From the IMG/VR virus record IMGVR_UViG_3300022745_000109, positions 1 through 34,640 of that record: a DNA stretch of 34,640 nucleotides; one strand, given 5' to 3'. The position numbers and the translations under genes were made by a program. Origin of the DNA: a virus. Shown here in pieces: positions 6,295 to 14,750 of the stretch. Position 1 is the first letter of the stretch. Each line of letters opens with the position of its first letter. The notes under the pieces are model-generated. The model searched no databases. It was not told where the DNA came from and saw only the letters and a list, made by a program, of their open reading frames with translations.

Positions 6295-6849
6295 ATGGCT
6301 AGGCCGTCAAAGCTGAGCCCCGAGCAGTGGGCGGAGGTTGAGCGGCGGCTTGCCGCTGGCGAGGGCGTGCGCGACCTGGCGCGAGCGTTCGGCGTGAGCC
6401 CTGCTGCCGTAAGTAAACGCGGTGTTTCGAAACAAACTAAACAAGTGCAGGTTGTTGCGAAACAGCTTGCCGAGGCGCAGACCGCGCTGGCCGCGCTGCC
6501 GGTCGCACAGCAGTACACCGCGCTATCGCTCGCCGAGCAGATGCGCCGGATCGGCCGGAGCATGGCAAGCGCCGCGTCACTGAGTGCGGCCACTGCACAC
6601 CGAATGCACGCGCTCGCAAACCAGGAGGCGCAGAAGATCGACGATGCCGACCCGCTGGCAAACCGCGATGCGTTGATGGGCGTGCAGGCGCTCACGAAGA
6701 TGGGCAACGACGCAGCTGTGTTGCCGATGCAGGTGATCAGCATTGCATCCAAGGGCGCAGCCCGGCCGCCGATGGATGGCGACACGATCGAGGATGCGGC
6801 CGACGTGCCCGACGAAGTGCTGATCCGGATCGCAATGGGCCAGCAGTGA
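6295..6849 (+). CDS. terS: Small terminase subunit
   Basis: This 184-residue protein has an N-terminal helix-turn-helix: LSPEQWAEVERRLAAGEGV, then DLARAFGVSPAAVSKR as turn and recognition helix. A long central helical region (QLAEAQTALAAL to QEAQKIDDADP) would support ring oligomerisation. The C-terminal acidic tail ends before a GTGA overlap with the large terminase. Its role is to recognise the packaging site and regulate the large subunit. Position and architecture both support the call, although small terminases diverge too far for a motif-level proof. Confidence 0.8.
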   Translation: MARPSKLSPEQWAEVERRLAAGEGVRDLARAFGVSPAAVSKRGVSKQTKQVQVVAKQLAEAQTALAALPVAQQYTALSLAEQMRRIGRSMASAASLSAATAHRMHALANQEAQKIDDADPLANRDALMGVQALTKMGNDAAVLPMQVISIASKGAARPPMDGDTIEDAADVPDEVLIRIAMGQQ

Positions 6850-9344
6850 CCCCGCAGCAAGCGGCAAGTGTGGTGATGCTGCGCCGCCGAGCGCGCGACG
6901 ATCTGGTGACCTACGCCAGCCGCGTGCCTGTGCCTGGGTCGCCGATCGAGGACGCCGACGAGCGGGCGCCGATCCCGCTGATTGAGAGCCAGCAGGCCGA
7001 CCATCACCGGCTGATGCTGCGCGAGATGCAGCGATGCATGACGACGCCGCACGGGCGCCTGATGATCTTTGCGCCGCCCGGGTCAGCCAAAAGCACTTAT
7101 GCGACGGTGGTCGCCCCCTCGTGGTATCTCGGCCGCCAGCCCGACCGACGCGTAATCCTTGCCAGCTACGGGGATGAGCTGGCGCGCAGGCACGGGCGGC
7201 GAACCCGCCAGCTTGTCAGCAGCCGAGAGCACGCCGGCATCATGCGGTGCAGCCTGCAGGCCGACCAGCGAGCAGCCGAGGCGTTCGCGCTGACGAACGG
7301 CAGCGAATACCTTGCCTGCGGCATCCTGGCGGGGGTGACTGGCAACCGCGCGCATTGCCTTCTTGGGTCAACGATGGTGGCGACTGATGACGGGGAACGG
7401 CGCATAGATTCTATTGTTGAATCAGGTGATTTATGCTATGTTCTGTCGTATGACATGCATACCGGAAGATTGGTTCGTAAACGCATCAAAGCCGTGGCAA
7501 GGAGTGAAGCGAGCGATATCTATCGAGTGCACACTTCCGATGGTGGCGTGGTCGAGTGTACGAGCGATCATCGCTTCTACACCGAAAGAGGATTTGTCGA
7601 GGCGCGCTTTCTTTCCACCGATGATCGGCTCTTGCGATTGGTGCGGGGCGGTGGTGAAGCGGAATGCATTCGAAATGAAGAAGGCGGACAAAAAGGGTTC
7701 GACGGGAATCTATTGCGGGCATTCGTGCCAGCAAATGGATGTGAACAGGAAACTCGGGAAACTCGGGAAATCGTGCAAGGAGTGCGGGGCGCATCTTCCA
7801 AGATATTTTGCGGGGAGCCGGAGCGGAAAGATATTCTGTACGGACATTTGCAAAGCGGCTGGCGCAGAAAAGACGAAGCAATCCCGGGAATATGTGACAA
7901 AAGAAAGGCCGTGCGAAGTCTGCAATATGGTGTTCCGGCCGAAATCAACGAGGCAACCGGGGAGGTTCTGCTCTCGTGCATGCAAGGATCATGGTCATGC
8001 AATGCAGATGCTTGCGGAGAAGAACCCGGGCTGGAGGGATGGCGCAAACAAGGCAAGACTGGACGAGCATTCGGCGAAGAGCTTCCGCGCCGCGAAGCCA
8101 ATGATTATTCAGAGGGATGGCGGAGAATGTGTGGTGTGCGCTGCAAAATCGCAGCTACATGTGCACCACATCGACATGAATGCATCGAACAATCGATGGG
8201 TGAATTTGGTGACACTTTGCTCGAAGTGTCACATGGAGCTTCATGGGGCAGAGAGGCAGAAACCGCGCGTGTTTCTGTGGCCTTGGTTGAGCGCCTATGC
8301 AGGCCAACCACGGTGTATGACATCCAAGTGGATGAAACCGAGTGCTTTTTTGCAAATGGAGTCCTTGTCCACAACTGCATAATAATTGACGACCCAGTAA
8401 AGGGACGCCAACAGGCTGACTCGCCAGCGACGCGCGAGGCGGTATGGTCCGCATATCAAGACGACCTCAAAACCCGATTAGTTCCTGGTGGCTCGATAGT
8501 CATCATCCTCACGCGCTGGCACGAGGATGACCTGGCGGGCCGCATCCTGCCGACCAACTGGAAGGGTGAGAGCGGCGACATCATGTGCAAGGATGGGCAG
8601 GTCTGGCGCGTGCTGTGCTTGCAAGCCGAGTGCCAGACCGACACCGACCCGATGGGGCGCGCTCGTGGCGAGATGTTGTGGTCGGAATGGTTCGATGCGC
8701 GGCACTGGGACCAGTTCAGGCCGGCTGCGCGCACCTGGGCCAGCCTGTACCAGCAGATCCCCGCACCGCTCGATGGCGGCCTGTTCAAGCCACACATGAT
8801 CCAGATCATCGACGCCGCGCCGGCCGGCGTGCATTGGTGCCGAGGGTGGGACTTCGGCGCAACGACGGATGGCGACCCGACTGCGGGCGCGCTGATCGGT
8901 CGGGCGCCTGACGGCCGGTTCGTGATCGGCGGCATGGAGTGGGGCCGGTGGGGGCCGGATGAGCGCGACGCCTGCCTGATCAACACCGCCAAGCGCGACG
9001 GGCGCAGCGTGCGCATCAGCATCCCTCAAGATCCGGGCCAGGCCGGCAAGACTCAAGGCATCTACCTCACCCGCCAGCTGGCCGGATACCGGGTGACGTG
9101 CACGCCGGAGACGGGCGACAAGGTGACTCGGGCTGAACCCTTCGCGGCTCAGGTCAACGTCGGCAACGTGCTGATGGTGCGCGGCGACTACAGCCAGCGC
9201 TTGATGGACGAGATGCGCGTGTTCCCGAACGGGACGCACGATGACCAGGTGGATGCGTGCGGCCGCGCCTTCGCCGAGGTCATGCAGCCGGTGCGACTGC
9301 AGATCAACCAAGCCGCCATCGACAAGGCTATGAGCGGCAGATAG
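6846..9344 (+). CDS. terL: Large terminase subunit interrupted by an intein
   Basis: This is an 832-residue precursor with a GTG start overlapping the small terminase stop. Removing the 340-residue intein (residues 171-510) leaves 492 residues, a normal large terminase size. The ATPase half has PPGSAKST (77-84) as Walker A, IIIDDPVKG directly after the intein as Walker B, and ILTRWHEDD (about 554-562) as the coupling motif. The nuclease half has GWDFGATTDGD with Asp669 and THDDQVDA with Asp799/Asp800. The protein pumps DNA into the prohead and cuts it. The intein separates Walker A from Walker B, so the unspliced protein should be inactive as a motor. Confidence 0.95.
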   Translation: MTPQQAASVVMLRRRARDDLVTYASRVPVPGSPIEDADERAPIPLIESQQADHHRLMLREMQRCMTTPHGRLMIFAPPGSAKSTYATVVAPSWYLGRQPDRRVILASYGDELARRHGRRTRQLVSSREHAGIMRCSLQADQRAAEAFALTNGSEYLACGILAGVTGNRAHCLLGSTMVATDDGERRIDSIVESGDLCYVLSYDMHTGRLVRKRIKAVARSEASDIYRVHTSDGGVVECTSDHRFYTERGFVEARFLSTDDRLLRLVRGGGEAECIRNEEGGQKGFDGNLLRAFVPANGCEQETRETREIVQGVRGASSKIFCGEPERKDILYGHLQSGWRRKDEAIPGICDKRKAVRSLQYGVPAEINEATGEVLLSCMQGSWSCNADACGEEPGLEGWRKQGKTGRAFGEELPRREANDYSEGWRRMCGVRCKIAATCAPHRHECIEQSMGEFGDTLLEVSHGASWGREAETARVSVALVERLCRPTTVYDIQVDETECFFANGVLVHNCIIIDDPVKGRQQADSPATREAVWSAYQDDLKTRLVPGGSIVIILTRWHEDDLAGRILPTNWKGESGDIMCKDGQVWRVLCLQAECQTDTDPMGRARGEMLWSEWFDARHWDQFRPAARTWASLYQQIPAPLDGGLFKPHMIQIIDAAPAGVHWCRGWDFGATTDGDPTAGALIGRAPDGRFVIGGMEWGRWGPDERDACLINTAKRDGRSVRISIPQDPGQAGKTQGIYLTRQLAGYRVTCTPETGDKVTRAEPFAAQVNVGNVLMVRGDYSQRLMDEMRVFPNGTHDDQVDACGRAFAEVMQPVRLQINQAAIDKAMSGR
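7356..8375 (+). mobile_element. Intein in the large terminase, directly before Walker B
   Basis: The 340-residue intein begins with Cys1 (CLLGSTMVATDDGERRIDSI, block A). Block B contains CTSDHRFYT with the TxxH signature. It ends with VYDIQVD, then FFANGVLVHN (blocks F and G), with Cys as the first downstream residue. All residues needed for class 1 splicing are present. The middle, about residues 95-300 of the intein, has no LAGLIDADG or HNH motif in this frame and is an irregular Gly/Glu/Arg/Cys mixture. Read one frame later, the same DNA encodes an HNH endonuclease. The splice site falls at a conserved active-site position, typical for inteins. Confidence 0.93.
7438..8382 (+). CDS. HNH homing endonuclease nested out of frame in the terminase intein
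   Basis: In the +1 frame relative to terminase there is a 314-residue reading frame with three CxxC...CxxxC fingers (Cys66/69/93/97, 113/116/134/138 and 159/162/178/182), then NPGWRDG. An HNH core follows: Cys231/Cys234, HVHHIDMN with the HH pair at 243-244, Asn256, and CSKCH at 261-265. This order is typical of phage HNH endonucleases. AGGTGA lies eight bases before the ATG at 7438. The next ATG, at 7621, would begin just before the first finger but lacks a good binding site. The last 45 or so residues are the shadow of splicing blocks F/G. The TAA lies seven bases beyond the intein, in the Walker B codons. Confidence 0.85.
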   Translation: MFCRMTCIPEDWFVNASKPWQGVKRAISIECTLPMVAWSSVRAIIASTPKEDLSRRAFFPPMIGSCDWCGAVVKRNAFEMKKADKKGSTGIYCGHSCQQMDVNRKLGKLGKSCKECGAHLPRYFAGSRSGKIFCTDICKAAGAEKTKQSREYVTKERPCEVCNMVFRPKSTRQPGRFCSRACKDHGHAMQMLAEKNPGWRDGANKARLDEHSAKSFRAAKPMIIQRDGGECVVCAAKSQLHVHHIDMNASNNRWVNLVTLCSKCHMELHGAERQKPRVFLWPWLSAYAGQPRCMTSKWMKPSAFLQMESLSTTA

Positions 9345-9380
9345 GCGCGATATACTCACGCGCAACCAGGAGCGCAACCA

Positions 9381-11723
9381 GTGCGACGGAAAACACGGCG
9401 ACCAGCGCCACAGCAGATCGAAGCGCCGAAGCTGGCGGGAATGGGCCTGCGCCGCGCTGCCGCCCGCGCGGCCGAGTCCGATCGGCCCGAGAAATCCTAC
9501 GAATGGCCGGTTCAGCCGCCGCAGCTGCTGAAGGGTGTTGTGCCTGCCGGCGTGACCGCGCCAGTGATGGCACAAGACTCGCCCGCCTACACGATGGCCG
9601 CCCACGCATTCCCGGGCGGCGGCTTCCCGGGCTTCGCCTATCTCTCTCAGCTCGCCACCCGGCCCGAGTTCCGGCAGATGGCCGCCGCGCTGAGTACCGA
9701 GCTGACACGAGAATGGATCGAGTTCACGTCTTCGCAGGACGACGGCGCCGGCAGCGCTGACCGCATCACGGCGATCGAGGCCGAGTTCAAACGCCTGAAC
9801 GTGCGCGGCGTGATCCAGCGCGCGGCCGAGCACGACGCCTTTTTCGGCCGCGCTCAGGTGTTCCTTGACATCCGTGGCGCCGACCGAGCAACCCCGCTGA
9901 TTCTCGACCCGCGCACGATCCAGCCTGGCAGCCTGCAGGGCGTGGCGACCGTGGAAGCGGTGTGGACCACGCCGGCCACGTACAACGCACTCGACCCGGT
10001 GGCGCCTGATTTCTACCGGCCGCCGAAGTGGTTCATGCTGGGCCAGGAAGTCCACGCCAGCCGCCTGATGACGGTGGTCACCCGGCCACTGCCAGACATC
10101 CTCAAGCCCGCGTTCAACTTCGCTGGCATGTCGCTGTCACAGCTGGCCGAGCCATATGTTGATAACTGGCTGCGCACGCGCCAGAGCGTGTCGGACCTGC
10201 TCAACAATTTCAGCATCACGGCACTCGCAACGAGCATGGACCAGGTGCTGCAGGGCGATGACGACGGCGCATCGCTGTTTGCGCGCGCCAAGCTGTTCAC
10301 GGCGACGCGCAGCAACAAGGGGCTGATGCTGCTCGACAAGGAGCGCGAAGAGATCGTTCAGATCAACACGCCGTTGTCAGGGCTGCACGAGCTGCAGGCG
10401 CAGAGTCAGGAGCACATGTGCCTTTCAAAGGGGACGCTGATTGAGACGCGGAGAGGTCAAATACCAATCGAATTCGTTAAAGAAAATGATGAAGTCATGA
10501 CCAGAGACGGTTATGCTCCTGTAGAATGGGCGGGTGTCACCGGCACAACGTCTAGCTTTGTCGAGATTGATTCAGGTGGGTCAATCTTGCGAGCAACAAA
10601 GGAGCATCCAATATGGCTGGAAACGACTCAAGAATTTGTACCTGCGAAGAATGTTCATCATTCAAGCTTCCTCAGAAAAAGCCCCGCATGGGAATCTATG
10701 GGCAATCCATTGCATGGCGAGGGCGCTTATGGTGCTACACAAAACAAGGATATTACCGAAATACAAAAGCAGGAGGGCTGTTGCACAGGGTTATTTATGA
10801 AACCCATATCGGCCCCATTCCTGCGGGGCTTGATGTTCATCACAAAGACGAAAACCCGCGCAACAACACAATTGAAAACTTGGTTTTGCTCACAAGAGCA
10901 GAGCACACAGCAGAGCATGACCCAAAAGGTTGGTACATCCAACTTGATGGCACTTTGTATGAAAAAGTTTGTGAACAATGTGGGGCTAATTTTCAAACCG
11001 CATGGCCCAACAGAGGCAAATTTTGCTCAGACAAATGCAAACAAAAAGCATTCAAAATTAGAAAGCGGAATCAAGCAAATCCGTGAACTTCGCTTGTTTC
11101 AAGATGAGCCTGTTTACAACATAAAGGTTAAAGACGGATTTTTACCCGAGTTCTTTGCAAATGGAATCCTTGTCCATAATTGCAGCGTCAGCCGGCTGCC
11201 GTCGGTCATCTTGACCGGCATTTCGCCGAGTGGGCTCAATGCATCCAGCGATGGCGAAATCCGCATCTTCTACGACTGGATTGCAGCGCAGCAGGAGGCG
11301 CACTGGCGCGCGCCGATCGAGGTGATTTTGAAGGCCGTGCAGCTCTCGCTATTTGGTGAGACCGATCCGGACATCGGGTTCGAGTTCGTGCCGCTGTACC
11401 AGATGACGCCGGCCGAAGAAGCGGACATCCGCGCAAAGGATTGCACCACCGCGTGCGCCTACGTTGACCACAGTATTCTCGACCCGTCCGAGGTCCGGCA
11501 GAAGCTGGCGCGCGATCCGGCCAGCGGGTTCCACGGGATTGATGCGGATGCGGAGATCGTGCCGCCCGTTGACCCTGCAAATGGGATGGACCCAGCGCAA
11601 GCTGACGACGAGAGCGTCAGTGAAGCGCAGCGCCGAGCAATGGAGGCCGCAGCACATGGCCGCAGCACAATCGGCATTCCGAAATCAGTTGGCAAGGAAT
11701 TCGCGCGTGCCGACGAAGCCTAA
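9381..11723 (+). CDS. Portal protein (DUF1073 type) interrupted by an intein
   Basis: This 780-residue precursor starts at GTG with AGGAG eight bases upstream. Residues 347-600 are an intein, leaving a 526-residue protein, a normal portal length. The extein has features I associate with DUF1073-type portals: early ALSTELTREWIEF, central FGRAQVFLDI, ASRLMTVV and AEPYVDNWLRTRQSVSDLL. After the intein come SVSRLPSVILTGISPSGLNA and EIRIFYDWIAAQQE. The portal is the dodecameric ring through which DNA enters. The intein sits just before the LPSVILTG segment, a conserved part of this family. The gene overlaps the gpF-like gene. Confidence 0.88.
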   Translation: MRRKTRRPAPQQIEAPKLAGMGLRRAAARAAESDRPEKSYEWPVQPPQLLKGVVPAGVTAPVMAQDSPAYTMAAHAFPGGGFPGFAYLSQLATRPEFRQMAAALSTELTREWIEFTSSQDDGAGSADRITAIEAEFKRLNVRGVIQRAAEHDAFFGRAQVFLDIRGADRATPLILDPRTIQPGSLQGVATVEAVWTTPATYNALDPVAPDFYRPPKWFMLGQEVHASRLMTVVTRPLPDILKPAFNFAGMSLSQLAEPYVDNWLRTRQSVSDLLNNFSITALATSMDQVLQGDDDGASLFARAKLFTATRSNKGLMLLDKEREEIVQINTPLSGLHELQAQSQEHMCLSKGTLIETRRGQIPIEFVKENDEVMTRDGYAPVEWAGVTGTTSSFVEIDSGGSILRATKEHPIWLETTQEFVPAKNVHHSSFLRKSPAWESMGNPLHGEGAYGATQNKDITEIQKQEGCCTGLFMKPISAPFLRGLMFITKTKTRATTQLKTWFCSQEQSTQQSMTQKVGTSNLMALCMKKFVNNVGLIFKPHGPTEANFAQTNANKKHSKLESGIKQIRELRLFQDEPVYNIKVKDGFLPEFFANGILVHNCSVSRLPSVILTGISPSGLNASSDGEIRIFYDWIAAQQEAHWRAPIEVILKAVQLSLFGETDPDIGFEFVPLYQMTPAEEADIRAKDCTTACAYVDHSILDPSEVRQKLARDPASGFHGIDADAEIVPPVDPANGMDPAQADDESVSEAQRRAMEAAAHGRSTIGIPKSVGKEFARADEA
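10419..11180 (+). mobile_element. Intein in the portal protein
   Basis: The 254-residue intein begins with Cys1 (CLSKGTLIETRRGQIPIEFV). Block B is LRATKEHPIWL with TxxH. It ends PVYNIKVKDG, then FFANGILVHN, followed by Cys. The catalytic set for class 1 splicing is complete. The central stretch, about residues 90-225, has no endonuclease motif in this frame. The DNA is clearly more AT-rich than the host gene: 23 of 60 bases are G or C in 10741-10800, against 40 of 60 in 9961-10020. This supports foreign origin. An HNH gene lies in another frame exactly between blocks B and F. Confidence 0.93.
10613..11086 (+). CDS. HNH homing endonuclease nested out of frame in the portal intein
   Basis: In the +2 frame relative to the portal there is a 157-residue protein. 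It contains LLHRVIYETHIGPIPAG, then LDVHHKDENPRNN (HH at 76-77), IENLVLL with Asn89, and EHTAEH with His98/His102. This is a textbook phage HNH_3-type core. A C-terminal finger follows (CEQC at 120-123, CSDKC at 138-142) and a basic tail. AAAGGAG ends nine bases before the ATG, so independent translation is likely. That ribosome binding site is also the Lys-Glu codons of splicing block B. The gene stops about 20 bases before block F, so it fits between the splicing blocks. Confidence 0.9.
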   Translation: MAGNDSRICTCEECSSFKLPQKKPRMGIYGQSIAWRGRLWCYTKQGYYRNTKAGGLLHRVIYETHIGPIPAGLDVHHKDENPRNNTIENLVLLTRAEHTAEHDPKGWYIQLDGTLYEKVCEQCGANFQTAWPNRGKFCSDKCKQKAFKIRKRNQANP

Positions 11724-12492
11724 ACTCGCCCGCGCCGTGCACGCGAATCGCGGCGTTGAAGCTGCGTACCGCAAGGCGCTGCAGTCGCTGATCGCCGAAA
11801 TGCATGGCTCCGTGCAGTATTGGCTGACGGCCGCGTACCGCAAAGACCCGCCGCGCATCGCCGAGCTGGCCCAGGACGCCACACCGGCAAGCAAGCTGCG
11901 CCGCGTGCTGGCCGCGCTGGCCGACCAGTGGACGCAGCGCTTCGATGAGGCCGCCCCAAAGCTGGCCCGCCACTTCGTCAGCCGCGCCACCCAGTCCACC
12001 GACGCGGCATTCCGCCAGGCACTCAAGGATGCTGGGTGGTCGGTGAAATTCACCATGACGCCCGAGATGTTGGACGCCTTCGACGCTGCGCTGTTTGAAA
12101 ACGTCGGCCTGATCAAGTCGATTCCCGCGCAGTATCTGCAGCAGGTCGAAGGCGTCGTGATGCGCGCTTACAGCGCCGGCCGCGACCTTGAGACGATGGT
12201 CAAGGATCTGAAGGCGATCTACCCTGCCGCGAGCCACCGGGCCGAGCTGATCGCCCGAGACCAGTCGAACAAGGCGAATGCCGTCGTCAGCCGGGCCAGA
12301 CAGATGGAACTCGGGATCGAGGAAGCCGTGTGGATGCACAGCCACGCCGGCAAGACGCCGCGCCCCGATCATGTGGCGGCGAATGGCAAGCGGTACAAGA
12401 TTGCCGAAGGGTGCTTGATTTCGGGGGAATACATACTCCCCGGGACAGAAATTAACTGCCGGTGCACAAGCCGGGCGGTATTGCCAATCTAA
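11656..12492 (+). CDS. Mu gpF-like minor head protein
   Basis: This 278-residue protein starts at the ATG at 11656, preceded by GGAGG. A GTG at 11707 with AAGGA is an alternative that would reduce the overlap with the portal gene from 68 to 17 bases. Sequence features fit the gpF/SPP1 gp7 head morphogenesis family: VEAAYRKALQSLIAEM near the start and a long helical middle. RAELIARDQSNKANA and MHSHAGKTPRPDHVAANG come near the end, finishing with PGTEINCRCTSRAVLP. These proteins sit with the portal and are usually encoded just after it. The Asp/His and CRC residues are the family signature. Confidence 0.85.
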   Translation: MAAAQSAFRNQLARNSRVPTKPKLARAVHANRGVEAAYRKALQSLIAEMHGSVQYWLTAAYRKDPPRIAELAQDATPASKLRRVLAALADQWTQRFDEAAPKLARHFVSRATQSTDAAFRQALKDAGWSVKFTMTPEMLDAFDAALFENVGLIKSIPAQYLQQVEGVVMRAYSAGRDLETMVKDLKAIYPAASHRAELIARDQSNKANAVVSRARQMELGIEEAVWMHSHAGKTPRPDHVAANGKRYKIAEGCLISGEYILPGTEINCRCTSRAVLPI

Positions 12493-12686: not shown

Positions 12687-14750
12687 ATGGCTGAATTTCT
12701 TACAGCGGCGCAGATCACTGCAGGTCAAGGGCATCAGCTTGTGCCTATGGTGCAGGACACCGTGACGAAGAAAATGATCGACGGGGATGGGAATCAATCC
12801 TCGGTGTTAGGGGGTGGCTACACATCGCAAGGCTTGGGCCTGAGGCATGACGGGACTGTTGAGTCAACGGCCCTGCAGAACGCAATTGATTTTGTGTGGG
12901 CTGTCAACGGTGACCACGGGGCGTGCATAGTATTCCCGAACGGCAAAAAAACCATTGCGGAAGGTATTATCCTACGCCCAGGAGTTTGGCTTGTATCTGA
13001 GTCGGCATTTACAAACCTGACTGAAACGGCAGCGCAGTGGTGGGGGCATCGTTTCGAGCTACCCACCGTGGCAACCATGCCACTGTTCCAAAACGATACG
13101 GCAAATGGGTATATCCGCCAACTATCAAATGATAGCCCGCAGTTAAACCAACGCTACAGCGGCGGTGGGTTGATGGGGCTGACTCTGGCCGGCAGTCAGC
13201 ACGTCACAAACCACACCACCGACTGCGACCTGCTGCGCCTAACGAGGTGCTGGTGTTTCTCGGTTATCGGGTGCTCACTTATTTCTTCGCGCGGCTTTGG
13301 CATGCGGTTGCTTGACTGCAACGTGCTTAATATTTTAGATAGTAATTCGCTCGCTGCTCCGGTTTTCATGGACTCGGTGGCCGACTCGCTTATTCGCGGC
13401 GGACAGTTTGGCCTTGGGAATGGGTTTTCATCAACTCCATTTTGGGTTTCTGATTCGCAGAAGAATCAAATCCAAGGTACGTTTATCTACAACAACCAAG
13501 CGAACGGCGCGCTTGGTATTACTACGCGGTTTTATGCATTCCCGATGGTCGCCGCAACAGTAAACATCAGCACGGACTCAAATCCAAATACTATACTGTT
13601 TGCCACTAACGCAGTCACTGGTGATAATGCGCACCGGTGGACACTGGGCACGCCAGTGACTGTCAGCTCAACAGGTGCACTGCCTGCGCCGCTGGTAGCT
13701 GACCAGACATACTTTGTCAGCCCAATCAACAGCGGCCGGATAGCCGTAGCCACCTCGCGTGAGCGCGCCAATTCCGGGGCTGTGGTCGTGCTCACCACGG
13801 CTGGCAGCGGGACAATTACCGTACAAGTCGGTGAAAATGCAAACCTATATGTGAATAATGGCAGCACTAAAAACCGAATTTCTGGCATTCGTTCCGACCA
13901 AGCTTTTGGGGCGGCAATACTTGTGGGCAAGGCTCCTGCAAATGCCATCAGTGATGTCATCGCACAAGAAAATTCTTTCGGAAACTATGTCGGCTGGCAA
14001 CCTGCGGGGCAACCAGCGCCGAGTATTCCCCCCGTGGCCGGCCCAGCGGTAGTTCTGCGCAACGGCGCTACCGGAACCTCACTAGGCGGCACTTGGTCTG
14101 TAGATGGCACGAAGACCGGTACGTTTGGGCAGGCGACAGGGTTTGAGTCGCGGCAGTTGAATGGCTTTAGTGTTGATTCCTCCAGTCGCCCAGGAACTGT
14201 ATTTGCGACTACGGCGAATGCGTTGAATCACACGACAGCAAACAGCGATACTGGGGCCGAAAACTACACACCAACAGACGTAAACCCAAATAGAATAGCT
14301 TTCCCGGCTGCGCAGTTTGCGAATATCACAGGGTCTACGGTGGCTACGTTCGGCGGGGCTCGTAGGTCTGGCTGGTCAATGGGGACGACAACTGACTGTT
14401 TTGTCGGTACTGAGGTCCAAGTGCCTGCCGGATGGTCAACTGTTCGCGTTACGCTTTACTGGGTGCCATCCGCAGCTGGTGCTGGTAATGTGATGTGGGC
14501 GTCATCCCTTGCTGGGTTCGCAGTTGGCGAAAATACTAATGCGGCTGACCCCGTGACAACTGCGGCAGTAGCCTCTGCAGCTGGTGGGCAGGACATACTG
14601 GCGTCTGCTGTGCTGAGCAGTACGTTGGATTTTTCGAGCTTTGCGGGTAAATCAGTGTACCTGCGGGTAAAACATGCTGGCACGGACGCCGGGAATACGT
14701 TCGCATCGGCGCCGGTGTTCTCGCACATCGTACTAGAAAAGATTGGCTGA
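12687..14750 (+). CDS. Beta-helix tailspike-like protein inside the head module
   Basis: This is a 687-residue protein with GGAG seven bases before the ATG. The first 60 residues look like an attachment region. From about residue 55 there is DGTVESTALQNAID, then ACIVFPNGKKTI, the usual opening of pectate-lyase-like phage spikes. A long run of short strand-forming repeats rich in Asn, Gly, Ser and Thr follows. The last 140 residues resemble a jelly-roll or carbohydrate-binding module (VRVTLYWVPSAAGAG to SVYLRVKHAGTDAGNTF). It probably binds or degrades a surface polysaccharide. Base composition is lower in GC than the neighbours, and the place between gpF and protease is unusual, so it may be acquired cargo. 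Confidence 0.7.
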   Translation: MAEFLTAAQITAGQGHQLVPMVQDTVTKKMIDGDGNQSSVLGGGYTSQGLGLRHDGTVESTALQNAIDFVWAVNGDHGACIVFPNGKKTIAEGIILRPGVWLVSESAFTNLTETAAQWWGHRFELPTVATMPLFQNDTANGYIRQLSNDSPQLNQRYSGGGLMGLTLAGSQHVTNHTTDCDLLRLTRCWCFSVIGCSLISSRGFGMRLLDCNVLNILDSNSLAAPVFMDSVADSLIRGGQFGLGNGFSSTPFWVSDSQKNQIQGTFIYNNQANGALGITTRFYAFPMVAATVNISTDSNPNTILFATNAVTGDNAHRWTLGTPVTVSSTGALPAPLVADQTYFVSPINSGRIAVATSRERANSGAVVVLTTAGSGTITVQVGENANLYVNNGSTKNRISGIRSDQAFGAAILVGKAPANAISDVIAQENSFGNYVGWQPAGQPAPSIPPVAGPAVVLRNGATGTSLGGTWSVDGTKTGTFGQATGFESRQLNGFSVDSSSRPGTVFATTANALNHTTANSDTGAENYTPTDVNPNRIAFPAAQFANITGSTVATFGGARRSGWSMGTTTDCFVGTEVQVPAGWSTVRVTLYWVPSAAGAGNVMWASSLAGFAVGENTNAADPVTTAAVASAAGGQDILASAVLSSTLDFSSFAGKSVYLRVKHAGTDAGNTFASAPVFSHIVLEKIG

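Follow-up and report, generated by a model that had tools for sequence, protein, structure and literature searches.

A predicted HNH endonuclease gene lies out of frame inside the terminase intein of a tailed-phage genome, and similar arrangements recur in other viral contigs

Canonical large inteins carry an endonuclease between their N- and C-terminal splicing regions, in the same reading frame as both. In split inteins a separate endonuclease protein lies between splicing halves that occupy separate ORFs; such 'fractured genes', in which the endonuclease gene stands on its own between the two halves, were reportedly described by Dassa et al. in 2009. The nearest precedent that we found in print is an insertion in the methylase gene of phage ShiLan, which hides an out-of-frame zinc-finger HNH gene (Arsenault, Gosselin, Gogarten 2025, PMC11855218); as presented in the accessible text, this insertion lacks an intein splicing domain and would, as proposed there, remain part of the protein. 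Another methylase case appears in a later genome note (PMC12613952), and the accessible text of an earlier methylase paper (PMC9957025) does not mention HNH. A survey of mycobacteriophage inteins (PMC5050341) locates those of terminases within the ATPase domain, and its accessible text has no match for 'overlapping' or 'out of frame'. By title and abstract we found no description of an out-of-frame endonuclease within a splicing intein. A possible exception is a preprint by Gosselin et al. (bioRxiv 10.1101/2025.01.02.630785) on actinobacteriophage inteins with 'non-canonical architecture', which PMC11855218 cites, in the part accessible, for frequent overlapping frames; it may describe the same arrangement, and Clown, one of the phages discussed below, is an actinophage.

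The window analyzed here is the whole 34,640-base stretch of IMG/VR virus record IMGVR_UViG_3300022745_000109, in which dUTPase, terminase, portal, head protease and tail sheath genes follow in tailed-phage order. A 687-aa ORF between portal and head protease (12687-14750) has no PHROG match at E≤1e-5. The features discussed below are listed in Table 1. The terL frame is stop-free from end to end and forms one single ORF. Its intein begins with Cys1 at 7356, has a block B TxxH motif (T69/H72) and a C-terminal HN whose Asn (N340) ends at 8375, and is followed by the nucleophile Cys+1 at 8376; the C-IIIDDP downstream is, we presume, a Walker B-like motif. Pfam Intein_splicing (PF14890) matches TerL residues 181-510 above its cut-off (E=8.5e-13), and no endonuclease family of Pfam or PHROG was matched in the TerL frame. 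The HNH gene sits in the +1 frame, which is open from 7414 to 8382. Counted from the ATG at 7438, its product has three CxxC-type zinc fingers plus a full HNH core; it matches the PHROG 1271 HNH endonuclease (E=2.5e-19) and Pfam HNH (22.3 bits, cut-off 21.4). Its first 60 residues matched no Pfam family.

Table 1. Features of the terminase and portal loci in window coordinates
Feature	Coordinates	Strand	Basis
terL (terminase large subunit) ORF, intein-bearing, 832 aa	6846..9344	+	PHROG 38/4758 terminase, Pfam Terminase_6C
TerL intein, 340 aa, directly 5' of C-IIIDDP	7356..8375	+	Pfam PF14890, computed junctions, PDB intein fold matches
N-terminal Hint splicing region (residues 1-98), modelled with confidence	7356..7649	+	AlphaFold; T69, H72 invariant
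AGGTGA, Shine-Dalgarno-like, 8 nt 5' of ATG 7438	7424..7429	+	sequence
Nested HNH endonuclease gene, 314 aa plus stop, phase +1 relative to terL	7438..8382	+	ORF, Pfam, PHROG
Zinc finger 1 (C66, C69, C93, C97)	7633..7728	+	cysteines invariant, 24 sequences
Linker in the TerL frame (residues 99-298), overlapping the HNH gene; no structure predicted	7650..8249	+	pLDDT <50 throughout
Zinc finger 2 (CKEC...CTDIC)	7774..7851	+	varies across TerL-type family
Zinc finger 3 (C159, C162, C178, C182)	7912..7983	+	invariant, 24 sequences
HNH core (C231, C234, H243, H244, N256, C261, C264, H265, H269)	8128..8244	+	invariant in 24 sequences; Pfam HNH
C-terminal Hint blocks F/G, ending HN, then Cys+1	8250..8375	+	junctions, alignment, model
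Portal gene with second intein, 780 aa	9381..11723	+	Pfam Phage_portal_3 and Hint_2
Portal intein, 254 aa	10419..11180	+	Pfam, splicing-block profiles, junctions
AAGGAG, Shine-Dalgarno-like, 8 nt 5' of ATG 10613	10599..10604	+	sequence
Second nested HNH gene, HNH_3 family, 157 aa, phase +2 relative to portal	10613..11086	+	Pfam HNH_3 E=3e-18

These searches bear out what an earlier note had claimed from the sequence: an HNH gene of 314 residues, with three zinc fingers and a complete core, lying out of frame within an intein that has complete splicing blocks and no endonuclease in its own frame. The note's span for this gene and intein, 7356-8382, is right in its start; the last base of the intein itself is 8375, and extein bases supply the HNH stop codon (8380-8382). 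The stretch open in two frames, which the note put at roughly 700 bases, is in fact ~940 nt and takes in much of the N-terminal splicing domain. The locus thus resembles canonical large inteins in the place of its endonuclease, except that the latter lies in another frame and is predicted to be a separate protein. The separate protein is also a feature of split inteins, whereas the TerL intein here is continuous. With the ShiLan insertion, as far as that paper is accessible, it shares a hidden out-of-frame zinc-finger HNH, an open host frame and a predicted spread by homing, but it differs in having a complete splicing domain around the HNH. It amounts to a known pairing, intein and endonuclease, with the endonuclease moved to another frame.

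The openness of both frames was assessed by synonymous shuffling. When the HNH codons were shuffled, 11.1 stops were expected in the terL frame inside the HNH ORF; none is present, and none of 5000 shuffles gave zero, so chance overlap is rejected for the TerL intein. In the reverse test, with terL codons shuffled, 3.4 HNH-frame stops were expected against none observed (P=0.015). The third frame over the same ORF has 15 stops. A sequencing frameshift is likewise rejected, since both frames are open through the insert and the arrangement recurs in isolates, as is a degenerate endonuclease in frame, since no endonuclease family matches in the TerL frame.

AlphaFold places the splicing fold of the TerL intein at residues 1-98 and 299-340, mostly with pLDDT ≥90, and this model matches solved inteins in the PDB (e.g. 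8ubs and 1mi8, with E down to 2e-6). Residues 99-298 are unstructured in the model, with pLDDT <50 throughout, and are predicted to be disordered. The +1 product is modelled better than the TerL-frame linker from the same DNA: its mean pLDDT is 78.7 and its N-terminal 60 residues are mostly above 80, with a low overall pTM of 0.42. A Foldseek search of the HNH model against the PDB returned nothing at E≤0.001; the sensible matches are short HNH cores.

The portal gene next to terL has an intein with a nested HNH gene of its own, which was absent from the earlier note. It belongs to another HNH family and lies in the opposite phase to the TerL-nested one. Shuffling the portal codons gives 6.7 expected stops in the portal-HNH frame, and zero was never reached in 5000 shuffles. 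Shuffling the portal-HNH codons gives only 0.9 expected stops in the portal frame (P=0.28), so that openness of the portal frame is cheap in that direction and could be due to chance. A viral scan with the portal HNH as sole query found no confirmed relative, and the records of four loci (L002, L003, L015 and L016; loci are numbered with L) have no clear second copy of the portal HNH; two of the four have partial matches, one of them to a free-standing HNH gene. A genome scan gave 4 weak HNH matches. PHROG 30251 ('terminase large subunit') matches the portal intein part (10419-11180) weakly and the intein part of an aminotransferase-like gene (L158 2030-4135) strongly; this profile therefore appears to contain some intein sequence, so that genes may be mislabelled by it.

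Similar arrangements occur in many other phages. Scanning with a single sequence brought up L002 (65% identity) and L003 (41%), in both of which the two frames are open. A tblastn search of GenBank phages located HNH relatives within the terL inteins of Gordonia phage Clown and Synechococcus phage S-EIVl, where they occupy the +1 frame; in Tetrasphaera phage TJE1, Acinetobacter phage Highwayman and a Rhodobacteraceae phage, the terL intein has a portal-type HNH in its +2 frame. The HNH is unannotated in all five named phage records examined, which give the terminase call alone. In two of four matching Streptomyces plasmids it is the HNH that is annotated, and the terL ORF is begun too late. 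The terminase ORF is open across the annotated HNH in L181 1387-4200 (pCQ3) and L182 1072-4200 (S. seoulensis plasmid).

Viral contigs were scanned with a profile of each HNH type, with 80 of 89 loci kept in one scan and 80 of at least 522 in the other, and inteins were detected with small home-made N and C profiles. Among the 80 kept TerL-type loci, 53 are out of frame with both splicing blocks and 1 with one block; 2 are in-frame inteins, 6 are covered by another frame that has no intein, and 18 are neither. The corresponding portal-type numbers are 51, 8, 0, 0 and 21; because the profiles were built from out-of-frame HNHs, the out-of-frame share in these counts is a biased frequency. Pooling all loci gives at least 114 cases with both blocks, overlapping copies included, of which at least 82 are distinct (L001, a copy of the window, was excluded before distinct inteins were counted). 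Among the matches listed, the distinct inteins comprise 32 in phase +1 (family A, TerL-type) and 50 in phase +2 (family B, portal-type), and within each family phase is without exception (32/32 and 50/50). Four of the nine one-block loci (L128, L160, L162 and L163) have portal-type HNHs in phase +1. Scanning a sample of ten host ORFs identified eight terminases, a PhoH-terminase reading frame and an ORF that matches an aminotransferase profile. TerL and portal homologues that have no intein align unbroken over the junctions. The signature of homing is mixed: the two inteins resemble each other more than their exteins do in the window-L002 pair and in three of five family B pairs, and not in window-L015 and most S-EIVl-like pairs. 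The in-frame HNH inteins among the matches, L090 and L091, have stop-filled other frames. Another viral contig has two out-of-frame HNH inteins (L096 1-804 and 2794-3556). L074, L078, L081 and L084 have the HNH in a second frame of DNA methylase-like genes that contain no intein, as in ShiLan.

A selected frame varies most at its third codon positions. Substitution rates at intein codon positions 1/2/3, pooled over 9 pairs of family A, are.207/.123/.259 in the N part,.371/.187/.165 in the HNH part and.132/.074/.292 in the C part; those over 8 pairs of family B are.271/.233/.451,.232/.462/.255 and.126/.231/.347, respectively. In both families the fastest position is thus intein 3 in the N and C parts and HNH 3 within the HNH part. 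Four-fold sites agree. In the HNH part of family A (8 pairs), 188 of 453 HNH-silent sites changed (42%), compared with 31 of 409 intein-silent sites (8%); in family B (5 pairs) the numbers are 104 of 223 (47%) and 22 of 205 (11%). For comparison, 44% and 64% of silent sites changed in the first 25 intein codons of families A and B. Between the window and L002, the differences at HNH positions 3, 1 and 2 number 98, 70 and 62 of 223. The contrast at silent sites indicates that the HNH protein is selected in this part, while intein-frame residues show no visible selection other than against stops. The HNH frame is therefore under purifying selection, and the TerL-frame linker can vary freely as long as it avoids stops. 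This pattern, together with the unstructured model of residues 99-298, agrees with the earlier description of the in-frame product as filler. Two outcomes that would have spoken against a retained HNH gene, stops or frameshifts in the +1 frame of relatives and selection on the TerL frame only, were looked for; in relatives both frames remain open, and within the overlap it is the HNH frame that is under selection.

Intein codons 26-85 set the two families apart. In family A they are slow at the silent sites of both frames (19% in the intein frame, 16% in the HNH frame). In family B the intein-silent sites are fast (45%) and the HNH-frame four-fold sites slow (11%), as expected if the intein frame alone counts there. 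HNH-frame stops in family A number 45 up to codon 30 (39.3 expected) and 12 in codons 30-70 (34.6 expected), with none beyond codon 70; stop bins used 7 pairs of family A and 5 of family B, with L062, L066 and L083 left out and everything beyond codon 110 pooled in the last bin. The window's ATG at 7438 is intein codon 28. The dual constraint and the drop in stops suggest that the family A endonuclease gene begins inside the splicing domain and shares its codons. Among 24 aligned sequences (the 27 references less L020, L024 and L063, the reference list itself being without L005, L006, L062, L066 and L083), complete conservation in the HNH frame is confined to cysteines, histidines, N196, N256, V242 and I245; in the intein frame, every residue conserved to that degree falls within the splicing blocks. 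The analysis thus goes beyond the earlier note in two respects: the arrangement forms a large class, and the TerL-family splicing domain is partly constrained in both frames.

Start codons point to how the HNH protein may be made. In 31 of 32 family A inteins (200 shuffles: mean 15.7, maximum 23) and in 46 of the 50 listed in family B (mean 16.8, maximum 23), the stretch from the last stop of the HNH frame to the HNH domain contains an ATG. This excess, two to three times the shuffled mean, favours internal initiation, although it partly restates the lack of stops, because an ATG has less room in shuffles whose stops fall late. Enrichment of Shine-Dalgarno sequences does not reach significance in family A (5/32; shuffle mean 2.4, maximum 7) and is modest in family B, where 7 of the 50 listed have an ATG with 5+ nt (mean 1.4, maximum 5). 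The alternative is that the HNH is made as an N-Hint-HNH fusion, by ribosomes that leave the terL or portal frame through programmed frameshifting. The HNH frame does come straight after the splicing domain, and in family A it is open through much of the N-Hint region. However, the last family A stops fall mostly in the first 65 codons and are then followed by an ATG, the family B frame is stop-filled up to about intein codon 85 before its ATG, and the shift required differs between the window's two genes (+1 versus +2). In L015, moreover, an ATG lies one codon past a stop and aligns with the window's second ATG at 7450 (a column comparison that left out L062, L066 and L083). We consider frameshifting unlikely, and a cis-splicing intein with a homing endonuclease gene in another frame, translated from its own internal start, the probable reading.

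Homing endonucleases are known to decay, and the matches contain apparent examples. L064 (2492-3506) has a stop in the HNH frame alone, and L087 (987-1623) and L089 (2684-3320) have lost most of the HNH gene; the intein frame is intact in all three, which we read as decaying endonuclease copies. Loss of the HNH while the intein stays fits an essential host frame with a dispensable endonuclease. Such cases lend some colour to the suggestion that the window's second frame is itself a relic, once active and now open by coincidence. We give this little credence, since the window's catalytic and zinc residues are intact, its differences from L002 fall mostly at HNH third positions, and the terL frame has 0 stops where 11 are expected. 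Splicing blocks flank the HNH in only one of the 41 checked loci that have no covering intein frame (39 scored 'none' plus L080 and L092), namely L139 (2608-3625), where N and C blocks surround an intact HNH and the intein frame has many stops; this locus resembles a split intein whose endonuclease gene is free. HNH proteins are also known parts of some packaging machines. PMC12613952, in its accessible part, cites them as such, and HNH genes inside terL in many phages could accordingly encode packaging factors and not homing endonucleases. We consider this very unlikely: the zinc-finger HNH architecture matches PHROG HNH endonucleases, HNH copies decay while terL persists, a second copy is inside the portal gene, and relatives occur in methylase-like genes without an intein. 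Finally, HNH genes are common in group I introns (PMC11855218, accessible part), and the insert might be a group I or II intron spliced at the RNA level. This we reject as having a negligible chance, because the insert is open in frame and predicted to fold as an intein, and an Rfam search of window positions 6800-11800 gave 0 matches up to E=1.

In this reading of an intein that splices in cis around a separately started HNH gene, the two frames, their conservation, per-region selection and the contrast in fold are computed results; splicing, internal initiation, cleavage and homing are inferred. Ribosomes from the terL start would make the TerL-intein protein, which would then splice itself out. 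The TerL-frame linker would be a disordered loop between the splicing blocks, presumably kept stop-free because TerL could not be finished otherwise. Ribosomes from an internal ATG (7438 here) on the same mRNA would make the zinc-finger HNH protein, whose most likely role is to cleave the insertion site in terL alleles that have no intein; repair of the cut allele would copy the whole insert across. The HNH enzyme thus probably spreads the insert. The portal intein would follow a like scheme with another HNH family in another phase. It is plausible that a mini-intein came first and the HNH entered later, as the earlier note had supposed.

Two HNH families in two phases point to a repeated solution and not an accident. 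The broader proposition, which we regard as evenly balanced, is that packaging genes host at least two old 'two-frame' intein families in which the endonuclease domain in frame has given way to a phase-locked HNH with a translation start of its own, with ~60 TerL-family splicing codons shared with the endonuclease, and that breakage of such overlaps may be a route to fractured genes. Annotation misses the arrangement, the records examined lacking either the HNH call or the start of the terminase. Textbook mobile inteins combine splicing and endonuclease in one chain; here they appear as two proteins from one DNA. The finding bears on how overlapping genes arise by insertion, on where split inteins originate, and on how a mobile element might tune its nuclease separately from the host protein. 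If true, splicing and mobility would share the same nucleotides in the TerL family.
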